Shown here in pieces: positions 360 to 30,386 of a DNA stretch of 34,831 nucleotides (positions are counted from its first letter, which is position 1; each line of letters opens with the position of its first letter). The DNA comes from Paenarthrobacter sp. Z7-10 (GTDB lineage: Bacteria; Actinomycetota; Actinomycetes; Actinomycetales; Micrococcaceae). The DNA lies in contig NZ_JADPVH010000043.1 in the NCBI RefSeq assembly GCF_026932795.1, positions 1 through 34,831 of the forward strand, read 5' to 3'. The notes under the pieces were generated by a model. It saw nothing but the letters and a program-made list of their open reading frames with translations. It searched no databases and had not been told where the DNA came from. Both the position numbers and the translations under genes were made by a program.

Positions 360-3263
360 ATGTCCCCGCCGGCCACCCCCTCATTGTCGCCAGCCGAGCG
401 CTACCGTGCCGCGCAGGCACGGCTCGCCGAGTCCCGGACCCGGCTGGGGGCCTTTAAGCAGACCTTCGGTTTCGAGCTCGATTCCTTCCAGCAGCAGGCT
501 TGCTCGTCTCTGGAAGCCGGCCGCGGAGTCCTGGTGGCTGCCCCCACCGGTGCGGGGAAAACCATCGTGGGCGAGTTCGCCATATACCTTGCCTTGGAGC
601 GGGGTTTAAAGGCGTTTTATACGACACCGATCAAGGCCCTGAGCAACCAGAAATACAGCGAACTCGCGCGCAAGTACGGTGCCGGCAATGTCGGACTGCT
701 GACCGGGGATACTAATATCAACGCCGATGCGCCGGTGGTGGTCATGACAACTGAGGTGCTGCGTAACATGCTTTACGCCGGTTCCGAGGCGCTTGACGAC
801 TTGGGGTACGTGGTGATGGACGAGGTGCACTACCTGGCCGACCGTTTCCGGGGTGCAGTCTGGGAGGAGGTCATCATTCACCTTCCCAGCGAGGTGCAGC
901 TCGCTTCCCTGAGCGCCACCGTCTCCAACGCCGAGGAATTCGGCGCCTGGCTGGACACTGTCCGGGGAGATACCGACGTCATAGTCTCCGAACACCGTCC
1001 CGTGCCGCTGTGGCAGCACGTGATGGTGGGTCGCGAGATCGTTGACCTTTTCGCCACCCAGAAGCCTTTTGATGAATTTGCTCCCCAGGCGGCGGAGCCC
1101 AGCGCGGGCGGGGATCCCTTTGAGGTCAATCCTGACCTGCTTCGACTCTCGCGCTCCGAAAGCGCCAATCCCTTCGGCAACCGCTACGTTCACGCCGGAC
1201 GGGCCGGCCGCCGGATGCGCAACCGCGGCTCGGCAGGCAACGGCACCGCAAACGGCGCGGTGCAGCCTCCGGCTATCCGCAAGGCCAGCCGTCCGCAGGT
1301 CATTACGGCGCTGGCTGGCCAGGATCTGCTGCCCGCCATCACCTTTATCTTCTCCCGAGCCGGCTGCGAGGCCGCCGTAAAGCAGTGCGTTGACTCCGGC
1401 CTTTGGCTCACTACGGAGGCCGAGCAGCGCGAGATTGCCCGCCGGGTCGACGAGGCAAGCCAGGATGTGCCCGCCGACGATCTGGAGGTGTTGGGCTACT
1501 GGGGCTGGCGGGACGGGTTGGTCCGCGGAGTCGCCGCCCACCACGCAGGCATGCTGCCGACGTTCAAGGAGGTTGTCGAGGCCCTGTTCGCCGATGGGTT
1601 GATCCGTGCGGTTTTTGCGACCGAAACGCTGGCTTTGGGTGTCAACATGCCGGCCCGGTCGGTGGTGCTGGAAAAGCTGGACAAATTCAACGGCGAAGCG
1701 CACGTGGACATCACCGCCGGGGAGTACACCCAGCTCACCGGACGTGCGGGGCGGCGCGGCATCGACGTGGAAGGGCACGCGGTGGTCCTGTGGCAGCCCG
1801 GCACCGCCCCGGCGGCGGTGGCGGGCCTCGCCTCCCGACGGACCTATCCGCTGAACTCCAGCTTCCGGCCCACCTATAACATGAGCATTAACCTGCTGGC
1901 CCAGTTTGGCCGGCCGCGGGCGCGGGAAATCCTGGAATCCTCCTTCGCCCAGTTCCAAGCGGACCGGTCGGTAGTGGGCCTGGCCCGCCAGGTGCGGTCC
2001 CGGGAGGAGTCTTTGGCCGGTTATGCGGACTCCATGCGCTGCCACTTGGGGGATTTCGGTGACTACGCCGCCCTGCGGCGAGAACTCGCCGAGCTGGAGG
2101 AAACCGCGGCCCGGCAGACGACCCGGATCCGCCGCTCGTCGCTGGAGGATTCACTGGAGCGGCTGTATCCCGGTGACGTGATCGACGTGCCCGGCGGCCG
2201 AACCCCCGGGTTCGCCGTCGTCGTCGCCGCCGATTCCGCCGCCCGGGAGCCCCGCCCGACCATCCTGACGCTGGAAAAGCAGATCCGACGACTCAGCGTG
2301 CACGACCTGGACGGTCCGATCACCCCGCTGCTGCGGATTCGGATACCGAAACAGTTCAACGTCAAGCTGGCCAAGGACCGGCGCGACCTCAGCTCGGCGC
2401 TGGGCAACGCTCTTGATGGCCACGGCGCCACTTCCCGTGGCGGGATGCCTGGTGCCCGATCTGCGGCGGGCCGGGCGCACGAATTCGTACTCAACGACGC
2501 CGGGTCCCGGCAGGAGCGCAAAATAACCGAACTGCGCCGCAGGCTGCGCGGACACCCGTGCCATGGCTGCAGCGACCGGGAAAATCACCTCCGTTGGTCG
2601 GAGCGCTGGGCGAAGCTGCGCCGGGAAACGGACGGACTTATCGCGCAGATCCAAGGCCGGACGAACACGATCGCCAAGACCTTTGACCGGGTCTGCGAGG
2701 TGTTGGCCGGTTACGGCTACCTCGAGGGGGCCGACGACGGCGGATTGCGTCCCAGCGCGGACGGTCAACGGCTGCGTCGGATCTACGGCGAAAAGGACCT
2801 GTTAATCTCGTTGTGCCTGCGCGAGGGCGCTTTCGAGGGTTTGGACGCCGCCGAACTGGCCACCGCCGCGTCCACGCTGGTGTATCACGCCAAACGCGAG
2901 GAACGCGGCCTGCGTCCCCGAATGCCCAGCATCTCGCTGGAAAGTGCCGTCGATACGGTTATCCGGCAGTGGTCGGTGCTGGAAGACGTCGAGGAGCAGC
3001 ACAAGCTGCCGCTCACCGGTGAGCCGGAACTGGGGCTGATGTGGCCAATGTACAAATGGGCCCGCGGCCGTTCGCTGGCCCAGGTGCTGGACGGAACCGA
3101 GCTGGCGGCGGGAGATTTTGTTCGCTGGGCCAAGCAGGTCATTGACCTGCTTGACCAGCTGGCGAAGGTACCCGAGCTGGACGGCAGCTTCAGCCGGCTC
3201 TGCGTGCAGGCCATCGAGGCCGTGCGCCGGGGCGTGGTGGCCTATTCGGCCGTCACCGAGTAG
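360..3263 (+). CDS. helY: Ski2/Mtr4-like DEAD/DEAH-box RNA helicase HelY
   Basis: A 967-residue superfamily 2 helicase of the Ski2-like group, probably an ATP-dependent RNA helicase in RNA processing or turnover. Visible motifs are Walker A APTGAGKT (residues 61-68), motif Ia TTPIKALSNQK (about 88-98), Walker B DEVH (154-157), motif III SAT (185-187), and motif VI QLTGRAGRRGID (458-469). The C-terminal third (about 780-960) resembles the DSHCT domain of Ski2 and Mtr4. A CHGC pair near residue 736 is a possible metal site. The length matches actinobacterial HelY. The ATG is preceded almost directly by AGGAG (354-358), which is very close for a ribosome binding site; coupling to tatC 18 bases upstream may help. 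It is probably cotranscribed with tatC. Confidence 0.93.
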   Translation: MSPPATPSLSPAERYRAAQARLAESRTRLGAFKQTFGFELDSFQQQACSSLEAGRGVLVAAPTGAGKTIVGEFAIYLALERGLKAFYTTPIKALSNQKYSELARKYGAGNVGLLTGDTNINADAPVVVMTTEVLRNMLYAGSEALDDLGYVVMDEVHYLADRFRGAVWEEVIIHLPSEVQLASLSATVSNAEEFGAWLDTVRGDTDVIVSEHRPVPLWQHVMVGREIVDLFATQKPFDEFAPQAAEPSAGGDPFEVNPDLLRLSRSESANPFGNRYVHAGRAGRRMRNRGSAGNGTANGAVQPPAIRKASRPQVITALAGQDLLPAITFIFSRAGCEAAVKQCVDSGLWLTTEAEQREIARRVDEASQDVPADDLEVLGYWGWRDGLVRGVAAHHAGMLPTFKEVVEALFADGLIRAVFATETLALGVNMPARSVVLEKLDKFNGEAHVDITAGEYTQLTGRAGRRGIDVEGHAVVLWQPGTAPAAVAGLASRRTYPLNSSFRPTYNMSINLLAQFGRPRAREILESSFAQFQADRSVVGLARQVRSREESLAGYADSMRCHLGDFGDYAALRRELAELEETAARQTTRIRRSSLEDSLERLYPGDVIDVPGGRTPGFAVVVAADSAAREPRPTILTLEKQIRRLSVHDLDGPITPLLRIRIPKQFNVKLAKDRRDLSSALGNALDGHGATSRGGMPGARSAAGRAHEFVLNDAGSRQERKITELRRRLRGHPCHGCSDRENHLRWSERWAKLRRETDGLIAQIQGRTNTIAKTFDRVCEVLAGYGYLEGADDGGLRPSADGQRLRRIYGEKDLLISLCLREGAFEGLDAAELATAASTLVYHAKREERGLRPRMPSISLESAVDTVIRQWSVLEDVEEQHKLPLTGEPELGLMWPMYKWARGRSLAQVLDGTELAAGDFVRWAKQVIDLLDQLAKVPELDGSFSRLCVQAIEAVRRGVVAYSAVTE

Positions 3264-6874: not shown

Positions 6875-6982
6875 GTGAAAGCAACCGCTGTACCGCCAAC
6901 TACCGGCATCAGGATTCCGATGCCACTTACTTTAACGCTTGCCTGCGCTCCGTTGTTCCGGGGCGGGCGGGGCAAACTACTA

Positions 6983-8857
6983 TTATACCGCGCGCGCTCC
7001 GGTGTTGCCCGCGCCCTGCTGGAGGTTCAACTCGGCGTACGTTCCCGACGCTGCCAGCAGTTCCTGGTGCGTTCCAGACTCCGTCAGGCGGCCCTTCTCC
7101 AGCACGAAAATCCGGTCCGCGGCAACGATTGTGGAGAGCCGGTGAGCAATGGCTATGGTGGTCCGTCCTGCCATGACCGCCTCAAGTGCGCTCTGCACCA
7201 GTCTTTCGCCGGTGGTGTCCAGCGCGCTGGTCGCCTCATCCAGAATCAACAGGGGCGGATTCTTCAACACCACCCGCGCGATGGCGAGGCGCTGCTTTTC
7301 ACCGCCGGAAAGCCGGTAGCCACGTTCGCCGACGACGGTTTGGTAGCCGTCATCGAACTCCATGATCCGCTCGTGGATGTTGGCCACCTTGGCCGCCGCG
7401 ATTAGTTCTTCGTCGCTGGCGTCCGCCTTGGCATAGCGCAGATTCTCCGCGATGGTGCTGTGAAAGAGGTACGTTTCCTGGGTAACCATTCCGATGCATT
7501 GATGCAGGGACGCCAAGGTGAGTTCCTGGATGTCCGTTCCATCCAGTCGAATGGTGCCGCAGGTTGCTTCATACAGCCGCGGGATGAGATAGGAAAGGGT
7601 GGTTTTCCCGGCTCCGGAGGGCCCCACGAAGGCGGCGAATTCCCCGGGCGCGATGCTCAGGCTGACTTCGCGCAGCGCCCAGCCGGCGTCGTCGCTGATG
7701 GTCTTTCCCGGCAGGTAGCTGAAGGACACGGCGTCCAGGGTCAGGGCGCCACGCACCGACGATGGATCCAGTGTGCGTGCGCCCGGCTGGTCCACGATCC
7801 CCGGTTTCAAGTCGAGGTATTCAAAGATGCGGGCGAACAGCGCCTGGGATGTCTGCACGTCGAGGGAGACCCGCATGAGGGACAGGATGGGCATGCTGAT
7901 CCGCGCCTGCAGGGTGGTGAACGCGACGAGCGTGCCGGCCGTGATGGGCCAGCTTTGTGTCAGCAGCCAACCGGCGCATAGAGAGACGATGGCCGGGGTG
8001 ATGTTCATGAAGATCTGCACGGCGCCAAAAAAGCGCTGGCCGGTCATCTGCTGCCGGATCTGCAGCCGCAGTTGCTGGTGGTTCGCAGAACGGTAGCGGG
8101 CGGTCTCCGCGTCCTCCTGGTTGAAGACTTTGCTGAGCACGATTCCGGACACGGACAGCGCCTCCTGGGTGATGGCGGTCATGTCCGAGAGCGACTCCTG
8201 CGTTTTGCGGGCGATCTCCCGGCGCACACGGCCGATTCGAACCTGGAGAACGATCAGGAACGGCAGCAGGATCAGGGCCACGATGGTCAGCTGCCAGGAG
8301 AGCAGCAGCATCGCCGCCAGCGCGGAGAGGACGGTGACCGTATTAGCCAGGATGGACGGCACGGTATTGGTCAGCACGCCGGCCACGCCGCCGACGTCGT
8401 TGGCCAGGCGGGATTGAATAACTCCCGTTTTGGTGCGGGTGAAGAAGGCCAATTCCATTGTCTGCAGATGGGAAAACAATTGGCTGCGGACATCGGCCAT
8501 GACGTGGTTGCCCACGCTGGTCGTCAGGTAGGTGCGCCAGACGTTCAGCCCGGATGCGACAACGGTGACCAGCGCCATCAACCCCACCAGCTGGGCAAGT
8601 ACGGCCAGATTGGTGCCGCCCCGGGGTGGAAAGAGGCCGTCGTCGAAGGCGCGTTGCGTCAGCAGCGGCACCGCAACGCTTAGTCCGGCACCGATCACCA
8701 CCAGCACCGCCGTTCCGGTCAGCTTGCGGCGGTAGGGCCGAAGCAGTCCCCAGATCCTGAGGCCGAGGTGATGGATCGGCGGGGTGGTCAGATCGCCGGG
8801 GGAAGCGAGGAGGCGGCCACCGCGGCCGCCTCCTGCCATTCCTGCTGCGCCACTCAT
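6983..8857 (-). CDS. ABC-type exporter, fused permease and ATPase
   Basis: A 624-residue half-transporter with an N-terminal type IV exporter membrane domain (six predicted helices, about residues 35-330) and a C-terminal nucleotide-binding domain. The latter has Walker A GPSGAGKT (412-419), Q-loop Q460, signature LSGGE (516-520), Walker B LLILDEA (536-542) and H-loop H572. All catalytic residues are present, so it should be active as a homodimer or heterodimer. Substrate is unknown; this architecture exports lipids, drugs or peptides. GAGGA lies five bases before the ATG. It begins 27 bases after the SPFH gene stop on the same strand, so the NfeD, SPFH and ABC genes may form one transcript. 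Confidence 0.88.
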   Translation of the reverse strand: MSGAAGMAGGGRGGRLLASPGDLTTPPIHHLGLRIWGLLRPYRRKLTGTAVLVVIGAGLSVAVPLLTQRAFDDGLFPPRGGTNLAVLAQLVGLMALVTVVASGLNVWRTYLTTSVGNHVMADVRSQLFSHLQTMELAFFTRTKTGVIQSRLANDVGGVAGVLTNTVPSILANTVTVLSALAAMLLLSWQLTIVALILLPFLIVLQVRIGRVRREIARKTQESLSDMTAITQEALSVSGIVLSKVFNQEDAETARYRSANHQQLRLQIRQQMTGQRFFGAVQIFMNITPAIVSLCAGWLLTQSWPITAGTLVAFTTLQARISMPILSLMRVSLDVQTSQALFARIFEYLDLKPGIVDQPGARTLDPSSVRGALTLDAVSFSYLPGKTISDDAGWALREVSLSIAPGEFAAFVGPSGAGKTTLSYLIPRLYEATCGTIRLDGTDIQELTLASLHQCIGMVTQETYLFHSTIAENLRYAKADASDEELIAAAKVANIHERIMEFDDGYQTVVGERGYRLSGGEKQRLAIARVVLKNPPLLILDEATSALDTTGERLVQSALEAVMAGRTTIAIAHRLSTIVAADRIFVLEKGRLTESGTHQELLAASGTYAELNLQQGAGNTGARAV

Positions 8858-22639: not shown

Positions 22640-22719
22640 CTACATTATGTCAACTAGAAGTGATCCAATTGCAAAATTTGCAGATTAGGACCCGGTGATA
22701 CGCACTCCCCGATTCCGCC

Positions 22720-23009
22720 TTGGAGGGCCGGCTGATCAGGCTTCCGCTGCGTCAGGGAGCCTTTTCCGCGGATGCCGTGTTCGAGGACATGCTCACGGGC
22801 TGGAAACAGCAGCAGCTGGCCCGGAACTTCACGGCCGGCACGATCCGTGGACATGAGAGCCTGGTCCGCCGGTTCGTGGATCACACCGGGCATTTTCCGT
22901 GGGACTGGACCGTCGGTGATGCCGATGAGTTCTTCGCCCATGAGCGCTCGATCCTGAATCTGGCCTTCGCCACCATGCGGGCCCATCAGACGCATCTGAA
23001 GGTGTTCTG
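22720..23009 (+). pseudogene. Tyrosine recombinase, N-terminal fragment
   Basis: About 97 codons match the N-terminal SAM-like, DNA-binding domain of a phage-type integrase (QQLARNFTAGTIRGHESLVRRF, then WDWTVGDADEFFAHE and LAFATMRAHQTHLKVF). The catalytic domain is missing: homology stops at 23009, where an 87-bp foreign segment begins and puts the frame into a stop at 23067. The start codon may be TTG 22720. Confidence 0.7.
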
Positions 23010-23096
23010 GGCGCCAGGCAGTCATCATCGAGCGGATGCTGAGGCTTCGCGCTCCTTTGAGCGGTGAACAGGTCCGCGGATTGGAGACCGTGGGAC
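23010..23096. repeat. Left copy of an 87-bp inverted repeat
   Basis: These 87 bases are identical, in reverse complement, to 29815-29901. The right copy lies inside a small membrane-protein gene and encodes its middle (from RRQAVIIER through SGEQVRGLETVG). Here the same bases join two unrelated integrase fragments. The segment starts with the palindrome GGCGCC. Confidence 0.93.
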
Positions 23097-23665
23097 GCGG
23101 CAGACTCGAGATACCGCACCGCTACGCTGCGACGAAGCCGCTCATCACCCAACAGCAACGCCTCGACCTCATCCGGCAATGCGTCGAATCCACGGCATCG
23201 CCCTTGGGATTCCGGGTCGCTGCCCTGATCCTGCTGCTCTTCGGACAGGCGGTCGGCAAGATCGCCGCCTTGAAATGCGTGGACCTGCAGGCCCTGCCCG
23301 AGGGGCTGCACCTGGACCTGGGGAACACCCCGGTCCTGGTTCCGGCCCAGATCGCCCCAATGTTCTGGGACTACCTGCACGACCGGCCCAACCAGCAGAC
23401 CGGCAACGCCGGGAGCCAGTGGCTCTTCCCCGGCACCCTGCCGGGCCAGCACATCCACGCCGACGCAATGATGGGCCAACTCCGCGCCCTTGATATCGAC
23501 CTCGGCGGTGCAAGGAACACCGCCCTCCGCAGCCTCGTCCAGGAACTACCACCAACCCTGGTCGCAAACGCACTCGGCTACAGCTACCAGGTCATCCACA
23601 AACACGCCGGCGATGCAGGCGTCCCCATGGCCGGCTATCCAGGGAAGGGCGCGCTGCTCCGATGA
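23096..23665 (+). pseudogene. Integrase-like protein, C-terminal fragment
   Basis: About 189 codons resemble the C-terminal part of a degenerate tyrosine recombinase family common in actinobacterial islands: RVAALILLLFGQAVGKIAALKCVDL, NAGSQWLFPGTLPGQHI, then LVANALGYSYQVIHKHAGDAGVPMAGYPGKG. The usual catalytic Arg and HxxR box are not evident, so activity is doubtful even in the intact parent. Through the 87-bp segment the frame extends back to an ATG at 23036, so a chimeric 209-residue protein could be made. Confidence 0.6.
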
Positions 23666-23707
23666 GTCCTGTTTACCAAGCTGCGGGACACCCCGCTGCT
23701 CCCTGGG

Positions 23708-23750
23708 CTACGCCAGGAACGCGTTCAGAAGCACTATGGCAAGACCCGCT
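23708..23750 (-). pseudogene. 3' end of a small membrane-protein gene split by the IS21-family element
   Basis: When the IS and one copy of its CCCGCT duplication are removed, the minus strand runs from the 5' part (29784-29968) straight into these bases. It then encodes LAGLAIVLLNAFLA and a TAG stop (23710-23708), completing a second hydrophobic helix. Confidence 0.75.
23745..23750. repeat. Left target-site duplication of the IS21-family element
   Basis: CCCGCT directly precedes the left IS end and recurs directly after the right end at 29784-29789. A 6-bp duplication is within the range known for IS21-family elements. Confidence 0.88.
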
Positions 23751-23856
23751 TGTTAGCGGCCACGGAACTGCCCACTGGCGGCCAGCAAAACTGCCCGTTG
23801 GTGGCCATGAGATCTGCCCACTTCCTGTACTGATCCTGCGCGCTTAAGCGGCGGGA

Positions 23857-23916
23857 GTCTCTTCCCGGGGTTTGATTGCGGTGTCTAAGACGCACCAAAG
23901 TCACCCAGGAAGAGAC
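23857..23916 (+). promoter_or_regulatory. Inverted repeat masking the istA ribosome binding site
   Basis: GTCTCTTCC (23857-23865) is complementary to GGAAGAGAC (23908-23916), which contains the istA Shine-Dalgarno sequence six to thirteen bases before the ATG. A transcript entering from outside would contain both arms and hide the site. A transcript started between the arms would not. Confidence 0.5.
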
Positions 23917-23921
23917 CCAAT

Positions 23922-24298
23922 ATGAAGTTTGACGGAGAAATCATGGAAATACTCGCAGCCTACGATTTGACCGGATCGTTGCGCGCCACAGCCGAACTCA
24001 CGGGGTGCTCACACCACACGGTGGCCCGCCACGTAGCAGCCCGCGATGCTGGGAAGCCCATCGCTGAACCGGTGTTCCGGGGTCGGGTCACGGACCCGTA
24101 CCTGCCCAAGATCGAGGAATGGGTCGAGGTATCCAAGGGCAGGATCCGTGCTGACAAGGCCCACGATAAACTCCTCGCCCTGGTTACACGGGCTCGGAAC
24201 GCTCAACGCGGCGGGCGGTTGCGCAGGTCCGCGCGGCCTGGCGGCTTGGCAGGGTCAGGGTGCACCGGCCCTGGATTACAGAACCGGGCATGTGGCTG
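23922..24298 (+). pseudogene. istA: IS21-family transposase IstA, N-terminal part
   Basis: The N-terminal helix-turn-helix region is clear (LTGSLRATAELTGCSHHTVARHV, about residues 15-37), then VFRGRVTDPYLPKIEEWVE. Near 24182 the frame shifts: CTGGTTACAC is one G short of the CTGGGTTACAC that would keep the family reading LGYTGSER. The other frame then continues correctly through AVAQVRAAWRLGRVRVHRPWITEPGMWL to the RIT insertion. The gene is therefore damaged twice, and only a short N-terminal DNA-binding product could be made. Confidence 0.88.
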
Positions 24299-24324
24299 TT
24301 ATGAAGAATTCTTCATAACAGCCA
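24293..24324. repeat. 32-bp perfect palindrome at the left RIT junction
   Basis: The central 20 bases are TTATGAAGAATTCTTCATAA, flanked by TGGCTG and CAGCCA. The left six bases belong to istA and the right six to the start of the RIT inverted repeat. Each half of the centre (TTATGAAGAA) differs by one base from the motif TTATGTAGAA found in the RIT ends. The right junction has no such extra sequence. Confidence 0.92.
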
Positions 24325-24419
24325 TTATGTAGAACCTGGAATTATGTAGAAAGTGTTCGGACGCCGGCTGTGAACGGGCGCCATGACACCGATCTGGCGC
24401 GGGTAGCTTTCTACATAAT
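24319..24419. repeat. Left 101-bp inverted repeat of the RIT element
   Basis: It is identical to the reverse complement of 27595-27695 except at 24412. It holds ATTATGTAGAA (24324-24334), ATTATGTAGAAAG (24341-24353) and, inverted, CTTTCTACATAAT (24407-24419): two motifs in one direction and one in the other, likely recombinase binding sites. The stop of the last recombinase gene overlaps its inner edge. Confidence 0.95.
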
Positions 24420-25408
24420 TACAGTCCTTCCAGGAAGGCCAGCAGCTCGTCGGGTGGGTGATAGCGGCCGGGGCGGGTCCCTGGCGGCGCCGTCCTGTCA
24501 AGCGCCCGTTGTTTGAGTGCCAGGTCGGCGTGGAGGTAGATCTGGGTGGTGCGGATGTTTTCATGACCAAGCCAGAGGGCGATGGTGGCAATATCGATCC
24601 CGGCCTGCAGGAGCCGCATGGCGCAGGTGTGGCGGAGCGTGTGCGGGGAAATCGTCTTCAAAGCCAGGGATGGGCAGTCTGTGGTTGCCGTCTTGACGTG
24701 CCGGGCAACGATTTTTGCCACAGCATCCCGTGTCAGTTTCTGGCCCGAGGGACCGGAAAAGAGCGGGGCTGTTCCCTGCGGTTGTCGTTCTGCAAGCCAT
24801 GCTTTGAGGTGTGCGCAGGCGTCCTTGCCAAGCGGGGTGATGCGTTCCTTGCGGCCCTTGCCCTGGCAGGAAAGGTAGGCGCCGGATTCCAGGTGCACGT
24901 CGGCTGCGGTCACGTTGACCAGTTCACTGACTCGCAGGCCGGTGACGATGGCTACGAACAAAAGCGTCCTGTCCCGTCGCCCCCGCCACGTTGAAGCATC
25001 CGGCGCGTTGATCAGGGTGTTGGATTCCTCCTCCGTCAGGTAGGTCACGATGGCCTTGTCGGAGCGTTTTGCCGGGATTGCCAACACGCGTTGGATGAGT
25101 TCAGCATGCTCTGGGAAGTCGTAGGAAGCGTACCGAAACAGCGCCCGGATGGCCGCCAGCCGGGCATTTCTGGTGTGGATGCTGGCCCGTCTGCTGCTTT
25201 CTAGCCAGGCAAGGTAGCCGCCAATGAAAACGGCGTCGAGGTCTTCAAGCTTCAGGTCTTGGGGTGCGTTGCCGGTTTCCTCCTTGGCGTAGTGCAGGAG
25301 CAGCCGGAACGCGTCCCGGTAAGAGGCCACCGTGTTCTGGCTTGCCCGGCGCTGCCCCACGAGCCGGCGGAGGAAGAAGGATTCCAGGATCGGTGCCAGG
25401 GATGTCAT
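24419..25408 (-). CDS. RIT tyrosine recombinase, third gene
   Basis: A 329-residue site-specific recombinase. The N-terminal SAM-like domain (about residues 1-110, with ASQNTVASYRDAFRLLLHYA) is followed by a complete catalytic domain: Arg I in TGLRVSELVNV (about residue 170), HTLRHT (HxxR box), LGHENIRTT, and the nucleophile tyrosine in QIYLH. It starts at ATG 25408 inside the preceding gene's stop, so it is translationally coupled. Its TAA overlaps the left inverted repeat. It looks intact and could act in trans on related ends. Confidence 0.9.
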   Translation of the reverse strand: MTSLAPILESFFLRRLVGQRRASQNTVASYRDAFRLLLHYAKEETGNAPQDLKLEDLDAVFIGGYLAWLESSRRASIHTRNARLAAIRALFRYASYDFPEHAELIQRVLAIPAKRSDKAIVTYLTEEESNTLINAPDASTWRGRRDRTLLFVAIVTGLRVSELVNVTAADVHLESGAYLSCQGKGRKERITPLGKDACAHLKAWLAERQPQGTAPLFSGPSGQKLTRDAVAKIVARHVKTATTDCPSLALKTISPHTLRHTCAMRLLQAGIDIATIALWLGHENIRTTQIYLHADLALKQRALDRTAPPGTRPGRYHPPDELLAFLEGL

Positions 25409-26343
25409 GATTCTTCCGCCAGATATGAGCCCAGCCGGGCGGAGACCAGGGACATCAATTCCGGTGTCCCGCTCAGGTACCAGTACGTCGCTTCCGGGTT
25501 CTGGTGCCCGAGGTAGGTCGAGAGCACCGGCAGCAGCGGCCTGACGTCCACACCCGTGCGGTACCAGCTCTGAAGTGTTTTCACGGCAAAGCCATGTCTC
25601 AGGTCATGTAGATGGGGCTGATGATGGAAACCAGGCCGTCTCACTCCTGCTTCCCGGGCCAGCCAGGCAAAGACGTGGCTGGCGTTGTCGGCGATCAAGC
25701 GCGTGCCACGGGTGGAAAGGAATACGGCGGGATCCTTGGGATGCGGATACGTGGTGTCCCGGATGCCCGAGTATTCCTTCAGTGCGGCCACCGTGCTCGG
25801 ATGTAGCGGCAGCTGCCGCGATTTCCGGTATTTTGCTTCCCGGATCGTCAAAAGTCCTTGGTCCCAGTCGACGTCGGAGCGGTCCAGGCCGGTGGCTTCG
25901 CTGCGCCGCATCCCTGTCACGGCCACCAATGAAATGTAGGTTCGGTAGGTTCGGGCACGGAAGCCGGGGGTGAGCCGGTCTGCGGCCGCCAGCACCCGGT
26001 CCAACTCGTCATCGGAAAAGATGTAAGGCGCGGGCCGGTGGTACCCATCCTGCAGCAGCGACTGTTCAGGGACCTGTGTGAGGGGGTCAAAAGCCTGTAG
26101 GTATTGGGCGAAGGGACGCACCGCGCCCAGGCGTGCGTACCACCACACCGGGTCGGCGCCTGCTGGCAGTGTTGCCCATTCCAGCACGCGCGAGCTGGTG
26201 AGGTGGGCGTCGCCGGTGCGTTGAAAGTACTTGATGAATTCCAGCAGAAGTTGCCCCTGCTGCTTCAGCTTGTAGCCCATGCTCCGGCGCATGTGCAGGT
26301 ACTGCTCGGCCATCAGCGCCACATCGTCCTGGGGCATGGTCAT
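25405..26343 (-). CDS. RIT tyrosine recombinase, second gene
   Basis: A 312-residue recombinase of a different subfamily from its neighbours. The N-terminal domain (AEQYLHMRRSMGYKLKQQGQLLLEF) is followed by Arg I in TGMRRSEATGLDRSDVDW, the HDLRHGFAVKTL box, LGHQNPEATYWYLSGTPEL with the likely nucleophile tyrosine, and an insertion (YRTGVDVRPLLPV) before the GH motif, as in RIT middle genes. All catalytic residues are present. It is coupled at both ends by ATGA overlaps. Confidence 0.9.
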   Translation of the reverse strand: MTMPQDDVALMAEQYLHMRRSMGYKLKQQGQLLLEFIKYFQRTGDAHLTSSRVLEWATLPAGADPVWWYARLGAVRPFAQYLQAFDPLTQVPEQSLLQDGYHRPAPYIFSDDELDRVLAAADRLTPGFRARTYRTYISLVAVTGMRRSEATGLDRSDVDWDQGLLTIREAKYRKSRQLPLHPSTVAALKEYSGIRDTTYPHPKDPAVFLSTRGTRLIADNASHVFAWLAREAGVRRPGFHHQPHLHDLRHGFAVKTLQSWYRTGVDVRPLLPVLSTYLGHQNPEATYWYLSGTPELMSLVSARLGSYLAEES

Positions 26344-27550
26344 GGCTGGCTCCCTGGCCAGGGCAGCGCCAGCGCACGCAGCGACCTGTAGTCGACTTTT
26401 GCGTACTGGGCCGTGGTGGCAGGGCTGCGGTGGCGCAGCACCTGGCCGACCTCGGCGAGGGAAGCACCGGCACGCAGCAGTTGTGTTGCCGCAGTGTGCC
26501 TGAGCCGGTGGGCATGGATTCCTTCAAGCCCGGCACGCCTGCTCGCGGCCAGGATCACTTCGGAAACCCCCGGCAGATGCCAGCCCTCCCACAGGTGCGC
26601 GAACCCTGAGAAACAGCGCATCGCCGGCGCCGTCAGGCCGGCCCGGGCGCAGGTATTCCGCCAAGGCCGATCCAACATCGTGCGGCAGGGGAAGCTTCTC
26701 TTCGCAGCGCCCCTTGCCCCGCAGGACGATGTCTCCGGCACGCCAATTGACATCGGTGAGCGTCAGGGACGCGACTTCATTCGCACGCAGCCCCAGCCGG
26801 ACCACCAGGACCAGAATCGCGTAGTCACGCCGCCCCGTGACCGTGTCCCGGTCACAGGAGGCCAGCAGCGCATCCACTTCCGGCACGCTCAGGCCTTGCG
26901 GAATGTTACTGCCGTGGCCGGCCGCGGACGGTACCGTACCCGCCAACGCCCGGCCGCACAGTCCTTCCATGAACGCCCAGCCCAAGAAGGACCGTAACCC
27001 GGTGATCGCATATTTCACGCTTTTGACCGATCCCACACCGTAAAGACCGGTGGTGAACGAGATGACCTCCCCACCGCCCATTGTGCCGAGCGAACGGGGA
27101 GCGCTCCGGCAGCCAATCCATGAACGCGTTGGCCGCCCGAACATAGTGCTGCCCCGTTTTGGCGGCGAGCCCCCGCTCATCCACGAGGTAGCGCTCAAAC
27201 CGCCCCAAAATGATCTGTTCCGGAGTGGTTGGATCCGGTGGCGGCTCAGGAACCGGAATCACCCCCAACCGGCGCAAATACTCCATCAACAACACAAATG
27301 ACGCCTGTGTCGGACGCATCCAACTTGCTTCCGCAGCCAGCTCGTCAACGAACCGCTGCAGCGCCCCATCCGTCAGCGCCCCACTATCCAGTCCCCGCGC
27401 ATCCATCCAACGACTCAACCGCCCCACCAGCGAGGCCAGCTGCTGCACCGTTGACTTCGCATACCCACGCCCAGCCAACAACAACCGGTAGCCAGCCACG
27501 TACGGTGCCAAAGGCCCCGTCATCGGCCCCGGAAATGACTTCGTCATCAT
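26340..27550 (-). pseudogene. RIT tyrosine recombinase, first gene, two frameshifts
   Basis: The N-terminal domain (YVAGYRLLLAGRGYAKSTVQQLASLVGRLSRWM-like, split here by position) reads in one frame to about 27090. The middle with Arg I (VVRLGLRANEVASL) reads in a second frame to about 26595. The end, with HRLRHTAATQLL, VLRHRSPATT and the tyrosine in AQYAKVD, reads in a third. All catalytic residues survive across the frames, so the parent was functional and decay is recent. ATG 27550 with AGGGAAGG upstream is the likely start. It is the promoter-proximal gene, so loss may also reduce coupled translation of the other two. Confidence 0.85.
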
Positions 27551-27594
27551 GCTCACCTTCCCTTATCGAGAAAACAAGCATGTGCCGCCCCGCG

Positions 27595-27695
27595 ATTATG
27601 TGGAAAGCTACCCGCGCCAGATCGGTGTCATGGCGCCCGTTCACAGCCGGCGTCCGAACACTTTCTACATAATTCCAGGTTCTACATAATGGCTG
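27595..27695. repeat. Right 101-bp inverted repeat of the RIT element
   Basis: Mirror copy of 24319-24419 with one difference. It ends CATAATGGCTG directly against the istA continuation CAGTACGAC. The same three ATTATGTAGAA-type motifs are present, one with a G in place of A. Confidence 0.95.
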
Positions 27696-28868
27696 CAGTA
27701 CGACTTCGGTGATGGCCCTGTCATCGATGGCCGTAAGACGGTGCTGTTCGTGGCGTGGCTGGCGTGGTCACGGTTCCGGGTCGTGATAGCGCTGCGGGAC
27801 CGGAGCGCGCCGACGGTGTTCGCCGCCCTGGACCGGACTTTCCGTATCCTTAATGGTGCCCCGACGTATGTGCTCACCGACAACGAGAAAACCGTCACGG
27901 TCTCCCATATCGCCGGCGTACCGGTACGGAACCTGCAGACCGTGGATTTCGCCAGGCATTACGGGATCACGGTGCTGACCTGCCAACCGGCCGATCCTGC
28001 CTCCAAGGGTGGGGTGGAGTCAACGGTGAAAATCGCCAAGGCCGATATTGTGCCCAAGGACACCAACCTGCGCACCGAATATGGTTCCTTCTCAGAGATC
28101 GAAGCGGCCTGTCAGGCGTTCATGGATGAGGTGAACAACCGTGAGCACCGTGCCACCCGCCGCAAGCCCGCCGCCATGCTGGTCGAGGAGGTTCCCCGTC
28201 TGCACCGCATCCCCGACACCGCTCACACTGTGGCCTTCGGGGTGTCCCGGACCGTGCCGGACAACACCCCGATGGTGACGTTTGAGACTGGGCAGTATTC
28301 CGTTCCCTCACACCTGCTCGGCGCACGGGTCTTCGTCCGCAGCCACGGCGCCGGTCCGGACGAGAAGGTCATCATCGTCCATCACGGCACGGACGGGCCC
28401 GTTGAAGTCGCCCGGCACCACCGTGCCCGCCCCGGCAGCCCGGCGATCGATGATGCGCACTTCCCCGGCCATCGCCAGAAGGTCCCGGGCGACTACACGG
28501 TCAAGGCCCGCAGCGCTGCCGAGACCGAGTTCCTGCACCTGGGCGCCGGTGCACGGGCCTGGCTGCTGGAAGCCGCCGCGGCGGGCACAACGCGGATGAA
28601 GGTGAAGATGGCCGAGGCCGTTGCCCTGGCCAAGATCAGTGGCACCGCCGGAGTTGATGCAGCGTTGGGTGAGGCAGCGACTTACGGCAGGTTCGCCGCC
28701 GGCGACCTCGCCTCCATCCTCGGCGCCAGGCCATCACGGAGCACGACCTGCAAGGCCGATGAAGCCACGTCCCTGTCTCAGGGCACCGCCGGGTGGGCCG
28801 CCATCGGCCAACCCCTCACACCCGCCGGCGCCGACGGCGTCACCGATACGTTGGAGGAAAGCGCATGA
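27696..28868 (+). pseudogene. istA: IS21-family transposase IstA, C-terminal part
   Basis: This 391-codon part carries the integrase-like catalytic core. It begins QYDFGDGPVIDG, where the first catalytic Asp is expected two codons after the RIT junction; the second lies in YVLTDNEKT and the Glu in SKGGVESTVKIAKAD. The beta-barrel-like C-terminal region follows. The frame is intact to TGA 28868, which overlaps the istB start. Cut off from the HTH part it has no proper start; an internal GTG (27741) could begin a shorter product without the first Asp. Confidence 0.9.
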
Positions 28869-29644
28869 GCGTCACCACGGCCCCCGCGCCGGCCCTGCCA
28901 CCGGAGGTAGAAGCGTTGATGCGTCAGCTGAAGATGCCCCACGCCCGGGCGCTGGCCCCGGAACTGATCGCTACCGCCCGTGCTCAACGCTGGGAACCCG
29001 TCGAAGTCATTAAGGCCCTCTTCGTGGAGGAAGCCGCCGGCCGCGCCCGGTCCATGCTCGCCACCCGGCGTAAGGCCGCCGGCTTCCCGACAGGAAAAAC
29101 GTTCGAGGCCTGGGACGAATCCGCTTCCTCGATCCCGGCGCCGACACAGCAGGGCCTGCGGACCCTGGAATGGATAACGCGCAGGGAAAACGTCGTCGTC
29201 TGCGGGCCCTCCGGGACGGGGAAAACGTTCTTCCTCGAAGCCCTCGGTCAGCAAGCCGTCGAAGCCGGGAAACGCGTCGCGTGGTTCAGGCTCGAGGACC
29301 TCGGCGCGCTGGTACGCGCTCACCGCTCCGATGATTCCGTCAGCCGGGTCGTCGCACGCATCCTGCGTGCCGAGCTGATCATCGTCGATGACATAGGACT
29401 GCTCGAAGTCGGCGCGGACGCCGCGGAAGGCCTCTACCGCCTCGTTGACGCCGCCTACGAAAAACGATCCATCGCAGTGTCCTCAAACCTGCACCCGGCC
29501 GGCTTCGACGCCCTCATGCCCAAAACCCTCGCCACCGCCACCGTTGACCGTCTCCTGCACCACGCGCACGTCTGTCAAACCTCCGGCGACTCCATCCGGC
29601 TCACCCAAGCCCTCGCCGGGAAGGGAGTCACCCCGATGAGCTAA
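28865..29644 (+). CDS. istB: IS21-family helper ATPase IstB
   Basis: A 259-residue AAA+ ATPase that assembles on target DNA and stimulates IstA. The N-terminal helical region is followed by Walker A GPSGTGKT (about residues 115-122), Walker B LIIVDDIGLL, a sensor I with SSNLHPAGF, and the C-terminal arginine-containing segment near TVDRLLHHAHV. It starts at ATG 28865 within the istA stop (ATGA overlap), so it is coupled to istA translation. It appears intact and could serve a related IS in trans. Confidence 0.92.
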   Translation: MSVTTAPAPALPPEVEALMRQLKMPHARALAPELIATARAQRWEPVEVIKALFVEEAAGRARSMLATRRKAAGFPTGKTFEAWDESASSIPAPTQQGLRTLEWITRRENVVVCGPSGTGKTFFLEALGQQAVEAGKRVAWFRLEDLGALVRAHRSDDSVSRVVARILRAELIIVDDIGLLEVGADAAEGLYRLVDAAYEKRSIAVSSNLHPAGFDALMPKTLATATVDRLLHHAHVCQTSGDSIRLTQALAGKGVTPMS

Positions 29645-29783
29645 CCGATCAAAAACTCCCCATATGGCCAACGCCACCAAAACCCTGGTGGGCAGATCTG
29701 TTGGCCATACACGGGCAGTTTCCATGGCCACCAGCGGGCACTTCTGCTGGCCGCCCACGGGCAGAAACTACTGGCCATTGACA

Positions 29784-29789
29784 CCCGCT
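29784..29789. repeat. Right target-site duplication of the IS21-family element
   Basis: CCCGCT directly follows the right IS end (TTGACA) and matches 23745-23750. Confidence 0.88.
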
Positions 29790-29814
29790 AGAAACAGAAG
29801 AGAGCAGAACAGCA

Positions 29815-29901
29815 GTCCCACGGTCTCCAATCCGCGGACCTGTTCACCGCTCAAAGGAGCGCGAAGCCTCAGCATCCGCTCGATGATGACTGCCTGGCGC
29901 C
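29815..29901. repeat. Right copy of the 87-bp inverted repeat
   Basis: Reverse complement of 23010-23096, identical over all 87 bases. Here it is a natural part of the small membrane-protein gene, so this is probably the source copy. Confidence 0.93.
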
Positions 29902-30059
29902 GGGCAATGCGCTTGCGAAAAACGAACCAACCCAGACCGACGATCATCAGCACCACGCCCAGCTGCATTCTTGCTCCTCCGAAGCCCTGCCACCAATAGC
30001 CCAAGACTAGTGGCCTCGGCTCGACGCGCTGGGAGCCTCAATGGCGGAGAACGGCAGAG

Positions 30060-30386
30060 AATAGGACTGAGACTGATAAGTGCCATTCCCGCTTGTACTC
30101 TGCGTAGCTCATCAGAGTGTCCTGGTGCGAACGCGACCAATTGATGCGTTCGGACTTTGATCCCGACGTGACTGGGGTGGCATCCCAGCCCATTAGGATC
30201 TTTCTTCCAGGCACCCTCCCCCGAAAATCACTGGTACATCACTATTTTGTCCGGAGCGCCGACGGTTTTGCCTTCGTTATCGACATCCGTCCTGATGCCC
30301 TGGTCAAGCCCATCCGTGAATTGTCGTCTGTAATCGGGGGCCCAATCTGTGTCCTGCCAACCATTTTCCACCTGACGTGGTGGTAA
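30060..30386 (+). pseudogene. TnsA-like endonuclease domain remnant
   Basis: The frame reads KCHSRLYSA, a TAG (30105-30107), then WCERDQLMRSDFDPDVTGVASQPI, RKSLVHHYFVRSADGFAFVIDIRPDALVKP. The pattern of ERD, then DFDP plus a QP motif, then a histidine before YF and a VxDxR strand resembles the TnsA nuclease-like proteins of actinobacterial integrase islands. Both ends are degraded and the C-terminal domain is lost. The assignment is by recalled family pattern only. Confidence 0.45.

Follow-up and report, generated by a model that had tools for sequence, protein, structure and literature searches.

A RIT element inside an IS21-family element in Paenarthrobacter: a recurrent target site in istA and a palindrome at one RIT end

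Structure of the locus

The DNA analysed here (hereafter the window) is a stretch of 34,831 nucleotides from Paenarthrobacter sp. Z7-10 (contig NZ_JADPVH010000043.1), a genome of 134 contigs; the closest plasmid matches are from Arthrobacter and Rhodococcus. Its positions 23708 to 29968 hold a RIT element, a unit of three adjacent tyrosine-recombinase genes, lodged in the istA gene of an IS21-family insertion sequence (IS) that itself lies within a small membrane-protein gene. The main interest of the locus is the site occupied in istA, which recurs in relatives, and the structure of the RIT ends, neither of which figured in an earlier note on this DNA, rather than the nest itself.

The RIT element (24299-27689, minus strand) measures 3391 bp, close to the 3.5 kb typical of RITs, and has terminal inverted repeats (24319-24419 and 27595-27695) whose 101-bp arms are 99% complementary. 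Its ritC gene (24419-25408, minus strand; 329 aa) is open, matches Phage_integrase (E 6e-36) and is 80% identical to ritC of another genome of the same genus (G002). The ritB gene (25405-26343, minus strand; 312 aa), likewise open and identified by Phage_integrase (E 5.2e-26) and by alignment, shares 4 bp with ritC (25405-25408) and positions 26340-26343 with ritA; overlaps of 4-8 bp between RIT genes are described in the accessible part of an earlier paper (PMC3414803). Judged against the 404-aa open ritA of a related locus in Arthrobacter nitrophenolicus (L094), the ritA of the window (26340-27556, minus strand) has changed frame twice, near 27,100 and 26,570, and now lies in three pieces in three frames. 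Two of these pieces match Phage_integrase and the remaining one gives SAM-like matches. RITs are also characterised by two core-binding domains in RitA and an extra C-terminal helix in RitC; in the first ritA piece of the window, SAM_4, below its cut-off, and SAM_1 each match a stretch of their own.

At the ritC end, the border of the RIT consists of three short segments: a 6-bp overlap, O (TGGCTG, 24293-24298, plus strand), a perfect 20-bp palindrome, P (TTATGAAGAATTCTTCATAA, 24299-24318), and an internal 6-bp spacer, O' (CAGCCA, 24319-24324), which is the reverse complement of the overlap. The three together form a perfect palindrome of 32 nt (24293-24324), present at one RIT end and absent from the earlier note. 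At the other end stands the second O alone (TGGCTG, 27690-27695, plus strand); O' and this O are included in the inverted repeats.

The IS21-family element (23751-29783, plus strand) is 81% identical to an uninterrupted IS21 on a Rhodococcus ruber plasmid. In this family the elements end in TG...CA and the target repeat is 4-8 bp long. The element of the window begins with TGTTAGCGG and ends with ATTGACA (TGT...ACA), shows multiple terminal repeats and is flanked by CCCGCT on the left (23745-23750) and on the right (29784-29789). Its istB gene (28865-29644, plus strand) is open and matches IstB_IS21 (E 7.6e-47) as well as IS21_help_AAA above cut-off. The 5' part of istA (23922-24298, plus strand) was delimited by tblastn with the uninterrupted istA genes of the R. 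ruber plasmid (L174) and of a plasmid of Arthrobacter NicSoilB11 (L175), the alignment running in frame 3 up to 24182 and in frame 2 over 24182-24298. The L174 alignment resumes at 27690, and the 3' part of istA (27696-28868, plus strand), starting with QYDFGDG, matches rve (E 1.4e-9 on 27741-28868) and also transpos_IS21, the latter below that model's whole-protein cut-off. Interrupted by the RIT and by the frame break near 24,182, this IS21 is thus a derelict member of its family. Since istA and ritA are both frame-broken, neither element looks self-mobile, and the RIT is probably a relic that could be moved only with help in trans. Megablast against plasmids returned no near copy of it, only distant ones (68 records). 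The rit genes of L094 have decayed differently: there ritC is split over two frames (6936-7921) and ritA is open.

Outside the IS, the minus strand carries the N-terminal part of the membrane-protein gene (29790-29968, start codon at 29966-29968) and its C-terminal end (23708-23744, stop codon at 23708-23710). Read across the IS, the frame ends in LAIVLLNAFLA and a stop, giving a gene of 73 codons with two hydrophobic stretches; the 78-aa frame containing it had no match in Pfam. A genome of the same family, G391, has this gene uninterrupted (L177). It is 90% identical over the N-terminal part and keeps the C-terminal run GLLFCSLLFLAGLAIVLLNAFL, with T in place of A as last residue (LAIVLLNAFLT) before the stop. 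Positions 23098-23750 and 29784-30095 of the window match adjoining parts of G391 that share six bases, a single CCAGCT aligned with the left repeat. The uninterrupted gene and the single CCAGCT indicate that the membrane gene was whole before the IS arrived.

These comparisons bear on the earlier note, which had read the locus, from the letters of the window, as a RIT inside an IS21 inside a membrane-protein gene. The limits of IS and RIT given here are corrections to the note. Both empty-site comparisons agree with its reading, neither giving an outcome that the note would have counted as a refutation, and such a three-layer nest is almost certainly genuine. The 73-residue, two-helix protein with a natural stop that the note obtained on removing the IS and one CCCGCT exists whole in G391, with the same end save for the T, and the note's view that this gene was intact before the IS holds. 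Removal of the RIT was said to rejoin istA; across the RIT the reading passes from GMWL to QYDFGDGP, and this junction is indeed present, as EPGMWLQYDFGDGP, at the corresponding site of both uninterrupted istA genes (L174, L175), though the istA frame is not restored, given the break near 24,182. The note also took the order of insertion to be fixed. The precedence of the membrane gene stands, whereas the nest does not force the order of IS and RIT: a RIT-bearing IS could have jumped with help in trans, so the RIT may have entered this IS copy elsewhere, before the IS reached the membrane gene. The expectation that the locus would be informative on RIT target choice was borne out, in that the same istA site recurs in relatives.

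Recurrent target sites and RIT end structure

The palindrome of the RIT end was used as a search pattern (TTATGNAGAATTCTNCATAA) in 395 genomes of the family and found at seven sites in six of them, the window included. At six of the seven sites, istA lies on at least one side, cut at the same W-L codons (the window, two sites in G002, and one each in G191, G201 and G230). The G002 contigs stop inside the RIT; in these searches G191 and G201 showed no more than RIT remnants. No istA 3' halves were found in G230, G191 or G201 at E 1e-20, with a query that is possibly too distant, and the reciprocal products of the G230 site were accordingly not found. The W-L|Q-Y-D site lies just before what we take to be the first catalytic Asp of istA. 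A similar 20-bp palindrome in G254 (C1:2680185-2680204; L050) lies within a longer inverted repeat, and its flanks are unlike istA.

The closest RIT relative among the best 80 of 444 RitB matches, that of A. nitrophenolicus (L094), also lies in istA, at EPGM|WLQYDFGDG. A shared site could reflect a single old insertion, inherited while IS21 and RIT spread together as a composite; nested elements do travel together, and the RIT of the window may have come with its IS. The two RITs, however, are 90.4% identical, whereas their IS hosts are 81.6% identical over the 5' part (548 bp) and 76.4% over the 3' part (2104 bp). Common descent of a composite would not make the RITs more alike than their hosts. 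Moreover, the RIT runs antisense in four istA hosts and sense in two, and other RITs lie in unrelated genes. We therefore rejected the single old composite, which is very improbable. The window and its relatives point instead, with near certainty, to a RIT lineage that integrates site-specifically at one codon pair of istA.

RitB relatives were scanned in 84,980 species genomes, and the best 80 of the 444 found were combined with the window and 22 loci from the family into a set of 103 RIT loci. Inverted repeats were present in 79 of these, and 56, some of them near-copies of one another, had arms of at least 24 bp and, on either side, flanks of 45 bp or more. The order at RIT ends is O (6 bp), P (20-bp palindrome), O' (6 bp), arm A, genes, A' and O. 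At 9-10 of 10 positions, the palindrome occurs at one end in 44 of the 56 loci, at both ends in 2 and at neither in 10, compared with 5 of 1278 control windows; at 8 of 10 positions the numbers are 47, 3 and 6, with 44 of 1278 controls. The halves of P are similar to the RIT arm, from which P is set apart by 6 bp, and P occurs at the ritA or the ritC end. Some of the loci lacking a palindrome are explained by rearrangement or by another element in its place; the repeat of L096 lies inside genes and was rejected as a RIT end. The palindromes called by script in L123 and L148 are other sequence and were excluded from the class counts, and five loci with unclear, shifted or double ends (L089, L145, L155, L166, L135) were excluded from some counts. 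L123, L148 and L205, from Mesorhizobium and Sinorhizobium, have a common GC-rich, hairpin-like sequence (CCTTGCCGCTCCGC...GCGGAGCGGGTTAGTCC) in place of P, as would be seen if a further element inserted at the attachment site of the RIT.

These features bear on whether P belongs to the attachment site at all. It could be a separate signal, such as a terminator, a regulator or the scar of another element, as might be suggested by the like palindrome between non-istA flanks in G254 (L050) and by the other palindrome-like sequence at its place in L123, L148 and L205. Against this stand the arm-like halves of P at a distance of 6 bp, its occurrence at either the ritA or the ritC end and its constant side relative to the target (see below), since a signal tied to the RIT genes would keep to one RIT end instead. 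We regard a separate signal as unlikely.

A target was assigned in 51 of the 56 loci, mostly by Pfam or NCBIfam matches of the separate pieces; assignments by motif reading or by likeness to scanned neighbours include L086, L109, L110, L132, L147, L148 and L154. Thirty-seven targets are transposase, recombinase or group II intron maturase genes, hit for the most part at conserved motifs and often at catalytic codons. Among transposition genes, RITs occupy istB at Walker B (9, of which L154 repeats L081) or Walker A (1), istA (2), IS3-type transposases at WSWD (3), at LWTG|D (2) and at the motif of the third acidic residue (1), IS256 (4), the C-terminal element of IS66 (4), and one each of rve, IS1380-like and IS701-like transposases. 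Serine recombinases (4), tyrosine recombinases (3) and a group II intron maturase (YADD; 1) are also hit. The other 14 targets are DUF3489 (5), DUF932 (2), ArdC (2) and one each of RadC, a staphylococcal-nuclease-like protein, an HNH-like protein (by eye), an AAA ATPase and a secretion-ATPase-like protein. The motifs of the targets are designated here as D1, Walker, YADD, HExxH and HxLRH. In the single-contig genome G207 (L086, L087), three near-identical RITs occupy three istB genes, two of them about 8.9 kb apart and in opposite directions.

Within a class, the position of the break is narrowly defined. All seven scanned istB 5' pieces stop at Pfam position 157 or 158 of 238, the IS256 5' pieces at 253-254 of 379 and the DUF3489 5' pieces at 33 of 68. 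Target labels on a RitB tree of 44 rows require 20 changes, which is the minimum (against a mean of 34.3 for shuffled labels, with none of 200 shuffles as low), a clustering to which near-copies add. Random insertion with duplication of 6 bp of target, reaching istA by chance, would account for the TGGCTG on both sides of the RIT in the window; it is contradicted by the recurrence of the same codon in six istA genes and of the same Pfam position in 7/7 istB pieces, and the two overlaps differ in 25 of 51 loci. Its probability is negligible. A 6-bp duplication by a DDE mechanism was also rejected, as the RIT encodes tyrosine recombinases only and the overlaps often differ.

As a hold-out, 12 RITs were chosen across genera from 40 listed of 266 plasmid records with a RitB relative, pathogen records being left aside. 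Ends were readable in eight (not in L207, L208, L209 and L212), and all eight lie in target classes listed above: istA of another IS21 subfamily (L204), LWTG|D (L206), IS66 (L211, L214), tyrosine recombinase (L213, L210), serine recombinase (L215) and IS256 (L205), with Pfam support in seven and assignment by eye in L210. P is present at one end in six (9-10/10 in four, 8/10 in two), on the side expected from the class in all six; L210 has a weak P (7/10) at both ends, and L205 has other sequence in its place.

Palindrome side, gene direction and integration

In the DISCRIMINATING test it was predicted, before the wider set of loci was assembled, that a directional target would fix the side of P and leave the RIT genes free to run either way. 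Such a pattern is expected if the junction A'-O-P-O'-A is palindromic and either half can be used. In ten target classes of at least two loci, the side of P never varies (37 of 37 loci). It is on the 5' side in istA (6), serine recombinase (4), IS66 (2) and DUF932 (2; the palindrome of L133 is only 7/10), and on the 3' side in istB Walker B (8), IS3-type (3), tyrosine recombinase (3), IS256 (3), DUF3489 (4) and ArdC (2). The RITs themselves run in both directions in nine of these classes, the exception being IS66, with two loci in the same direction. A recount by script covers 32 of the 37 loci and leaves the ArdC sides undecided; these come from a separate reading of the loci.

Four loci of Kibdelosporangium philippinense have RIT bodies identical at 3238 of 3238 positions, and identical bodies in four targets bear on RIT mobility only indirectly. 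L100 has the overlaps GAAGCT and the internal spacer GAGGCC (reversed reading), and L103, in the opposite direction, has the overlaps GAGGCC and the internal spacer GAAGCT. This swap is as one circle would leave it if used through either of two differently addressed halves. The overlaps of L102 are mixed, and of its two flanks one is that of L100 and the other that of L103 (500/500 each), so that L102 may be a recombinant; L104 carries GAGGCC throughout.

Tyrosine recombinases bind two arms and exchange strands across the short overlap that lies between them. The explanation that we favour, at a probability of roughly 0.8, is site-specific RIT integration through a palindromic attachment site. 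The excised circle would join the RIT ends as A'-O-P1 / P2-O'-A, and its junction would consist of two head-to-head 10-6-10 core sites sharing the 20-bp palindrome P1P2, an arrangement that fits a tyrosine-recombinase core in having an overlap between two bound arms. Recombination across the 6-bp overlap (TGGCTN) would integrate the RIT. Either core would be usable, so that the RIT genes could run in either direction while P invariably fell on one side of the target, and the core left unused would retain its own 6-bp spacer; other RIT lineages would target other conserved motifs of mobile-element genes likewise. In the window, the IS21 entered the membrane gene, with a 6-bp repeat, and the RIT entered that istA before or after. 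Integration by tyrosine recombination across a 6-bp overlap is highly likely, and the circle junction is probably palindromic.

The nest, the recurrent site, the end structure and the constant side of P can be read directly from the sequences, whereas the circle, strand exchange and double-stranded use of two cores are what we infer from them. Several points weigh against this explanation. Neither the circle nor excision nor transposition was observed. The two outer overlaps agree fully in no more than 26 of 51 loci (5/6 positions match in 9, 4/6 in 11 and fewer in 5), 10 of the 56 loci lack a palindrome at 9/10 (6 of 56 at 8/10), and the 6-bp spacing seen in 53 of 53 loci was favoured by the procedure by which palindromes were selected. 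Five of the 56 loci have no assigned target (L077, L096, L099, L107, L140). Target flanks and core arms show no resemblance (2.27 and 1.93 matches per 10 on average, against 2.67 and 2.13 for shuffled pairings), which argues against a simple picture of arm recognition. The 37 loci are not 37 independent events, as some genomes contribute more than one copy to a class (4 serine-recombinase, 3 istB and 3 DUF3489 loci being genome-mates).

Rearranged loci are of three kinds. P is present at both ends in L155 and in L135, the latter with DUF3489 3' halves (one by Pfam, one by eye). It is missing in L152 and L098, each with two target halves of the non-P side: IS66 3' halves in L152 (both by Pfam) and tyrosine-recombinase 5' halves in L098 (one by Pfam, the second by eye). 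In G230 (C1:3567729-3567748; L052, L093) a lone 20-bp P links the 5' halves of two different istA genes, placed head to head. Each half matches the IS21 model, and at E 1e-40 this genome had no RitB relative among those listed. The forms lacking P and the lone P would result if a second core acted on a second target. A further point against the attachment-site explanation is that the double-P and no-P forms could be products of homologous recombination among RIT copies.

The same regularities of side and direction would follow if the RIT moved as a folded single strand. The junction hairpin, with A'/A, O/O' and P1/P2 paired in its stem, would then form one double-stranded core, one strand would be exchanged and replication would resolve the product. 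The predicted 52-nt junction of the window folds into a full-length hairpin at -24.4 kcal/mol (z -13.7; none of 200 shuffles reached so low a value), a shape inevitable for a perfect palindrome. As hairpin pairing would have it, the internal spacer fits the overlap on the palindrome side more closely within its own locus than among class-mates (186; reached by 14 of 5000 permutations) and shows no such fit to the overlap on the other side (968 of 5000), although shared ancestry could also produce this match. The functionally related SE elements have strand-biased circles and a 6-bp footprint, according to the accessible part of one study (PMC10214605). The G230 scar, with P between two istA 5' halves, would be easier to obtain by exchange at a second double-stranded core. 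On balance we lean slightly towards double-stranded use of two cores and regard the folded strand as a doubtful alternative.

Related systems and a neighbouring deletion

To our knowledge, RITs have been known since about 2010 without agreed ends, target or mechanism. In its three adjacent tyrosine-recombinase genes with short overlaps and terminal inverted repeats, the element of the window is like the RITs of Cupriavidus metallidurans CH34. As far as the accessible parts of the earlier papers go, known RITs measure about 3.4-3.5 kb and have been found in transposase genes and in radC (PMC3414803, PMC2864759, PMC8138268, PMC10214605); these parts report identical RIT copies and insertions in a Tn6049-type transposase gene and in radC (PMC3414803), as well as in IS66 tnpA and radC (PMC2864759). 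Of the ends, the part available of one paper gives only the inverted repeat and an overlapping palindromic sequence that does not fit usual sites (PMC3414803), and that of another lists RIT target specificity as not tested (PMC10214605). The earlier cases fit the present picture, in which L129 lies again in radC and IS66 recurs. Beyond these descriptions go the one-sided palindrome, the 6-bp overlaps, the fixed target codons of each lineage and the direction-free insertion found here. No account of the RIT target rule or end structure was found in the literature searched; the main RIT paper, Ricker et al. 2013, lay outside that search and may contain part of both.

The rule found here defines the RIT ends exactly, supplies a 6-bp overlap and predicts the circle junction. 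Excision and integration are thereby open to direct testing, and a palindromic attachment site would explain insertion either way at a directional site. In what was available of one paper, it is said to be hard to see why four strands would need three recombinases. By aiming at conserved motifs of mobile elements, RITs would be parasites that always find mobile hosts and switch those hosts off. More speculatively, and with rather less than even confidence, RITs could be worldwide hyperparasites of mobile DNA with a palindromic site of two separately addressed 6-bp overlaps, folded-strand or two-core integration, each lineage being tuned to one conserved and mostly catalytic codon motif in genes of transposases, recombinases or other mobile-element proteins; if so, the unused 6-bp overlap would be a record of another target.

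Palindromic attachment sites able to fold into one core are known from integron attC and from attP of CTX phage. Unlike these, RITs have P at one end of the integrated element and encode three recombinases, and their folding is computed only. Homing introns and inteins settle in the codons of conserved active sites and thereby find targets in many hosts; RITs, in contrast, do not splice, break the host gene and encode no endonuclease. GInts, SEs and Tn554-type elements also combine several tyrosine recombinases with site-specific insertion and 6-nt staggered cuts or a 6-bp footprint, recombination features taken here from the accessible parts of two papers (PMC5385486, PMC10214605). They carry cargo and further genes, unlike RITs, and neither a one-sided palindrome nor direction-free insertion is described for them in those parts (PMC5385486, PMC10214605).

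A separate rearrangement, likewise absent from the earlier note, lies to the left of the nest. Positions 23010-23096 (plus strand) are an exact inverted copy, 87 nt at 100%, of 29815-29901 in the membrane gene, and fill a deletion of 2052, 2051 and 2052 bp relative to contig C86 of the same genome, G391 and plasmid p232, respectively. The deletion has left the remnant of a recombinase element (22718-23665, plus strand), in two parts (22718-23009 and 23098-23665) that are 94% and 90% identical to C86; the remnant of its third gene (209 aa, 23036-23665) had no match in Pfam or NCBIfam. By our reading, no bases are shared at the left joint and a single base has been added at the right one. This pattern is suggestive of end joining that captured a fragment, with template switching as a possible alternative. 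Intact relatives of the broken element occur on C86 (17915-20826; L018) and on Arthrobacter plasmids (L001, L002), and encode an integrase, a small helix-turn-helix protein and a third product annotated as hypothetical or as a recombinase.

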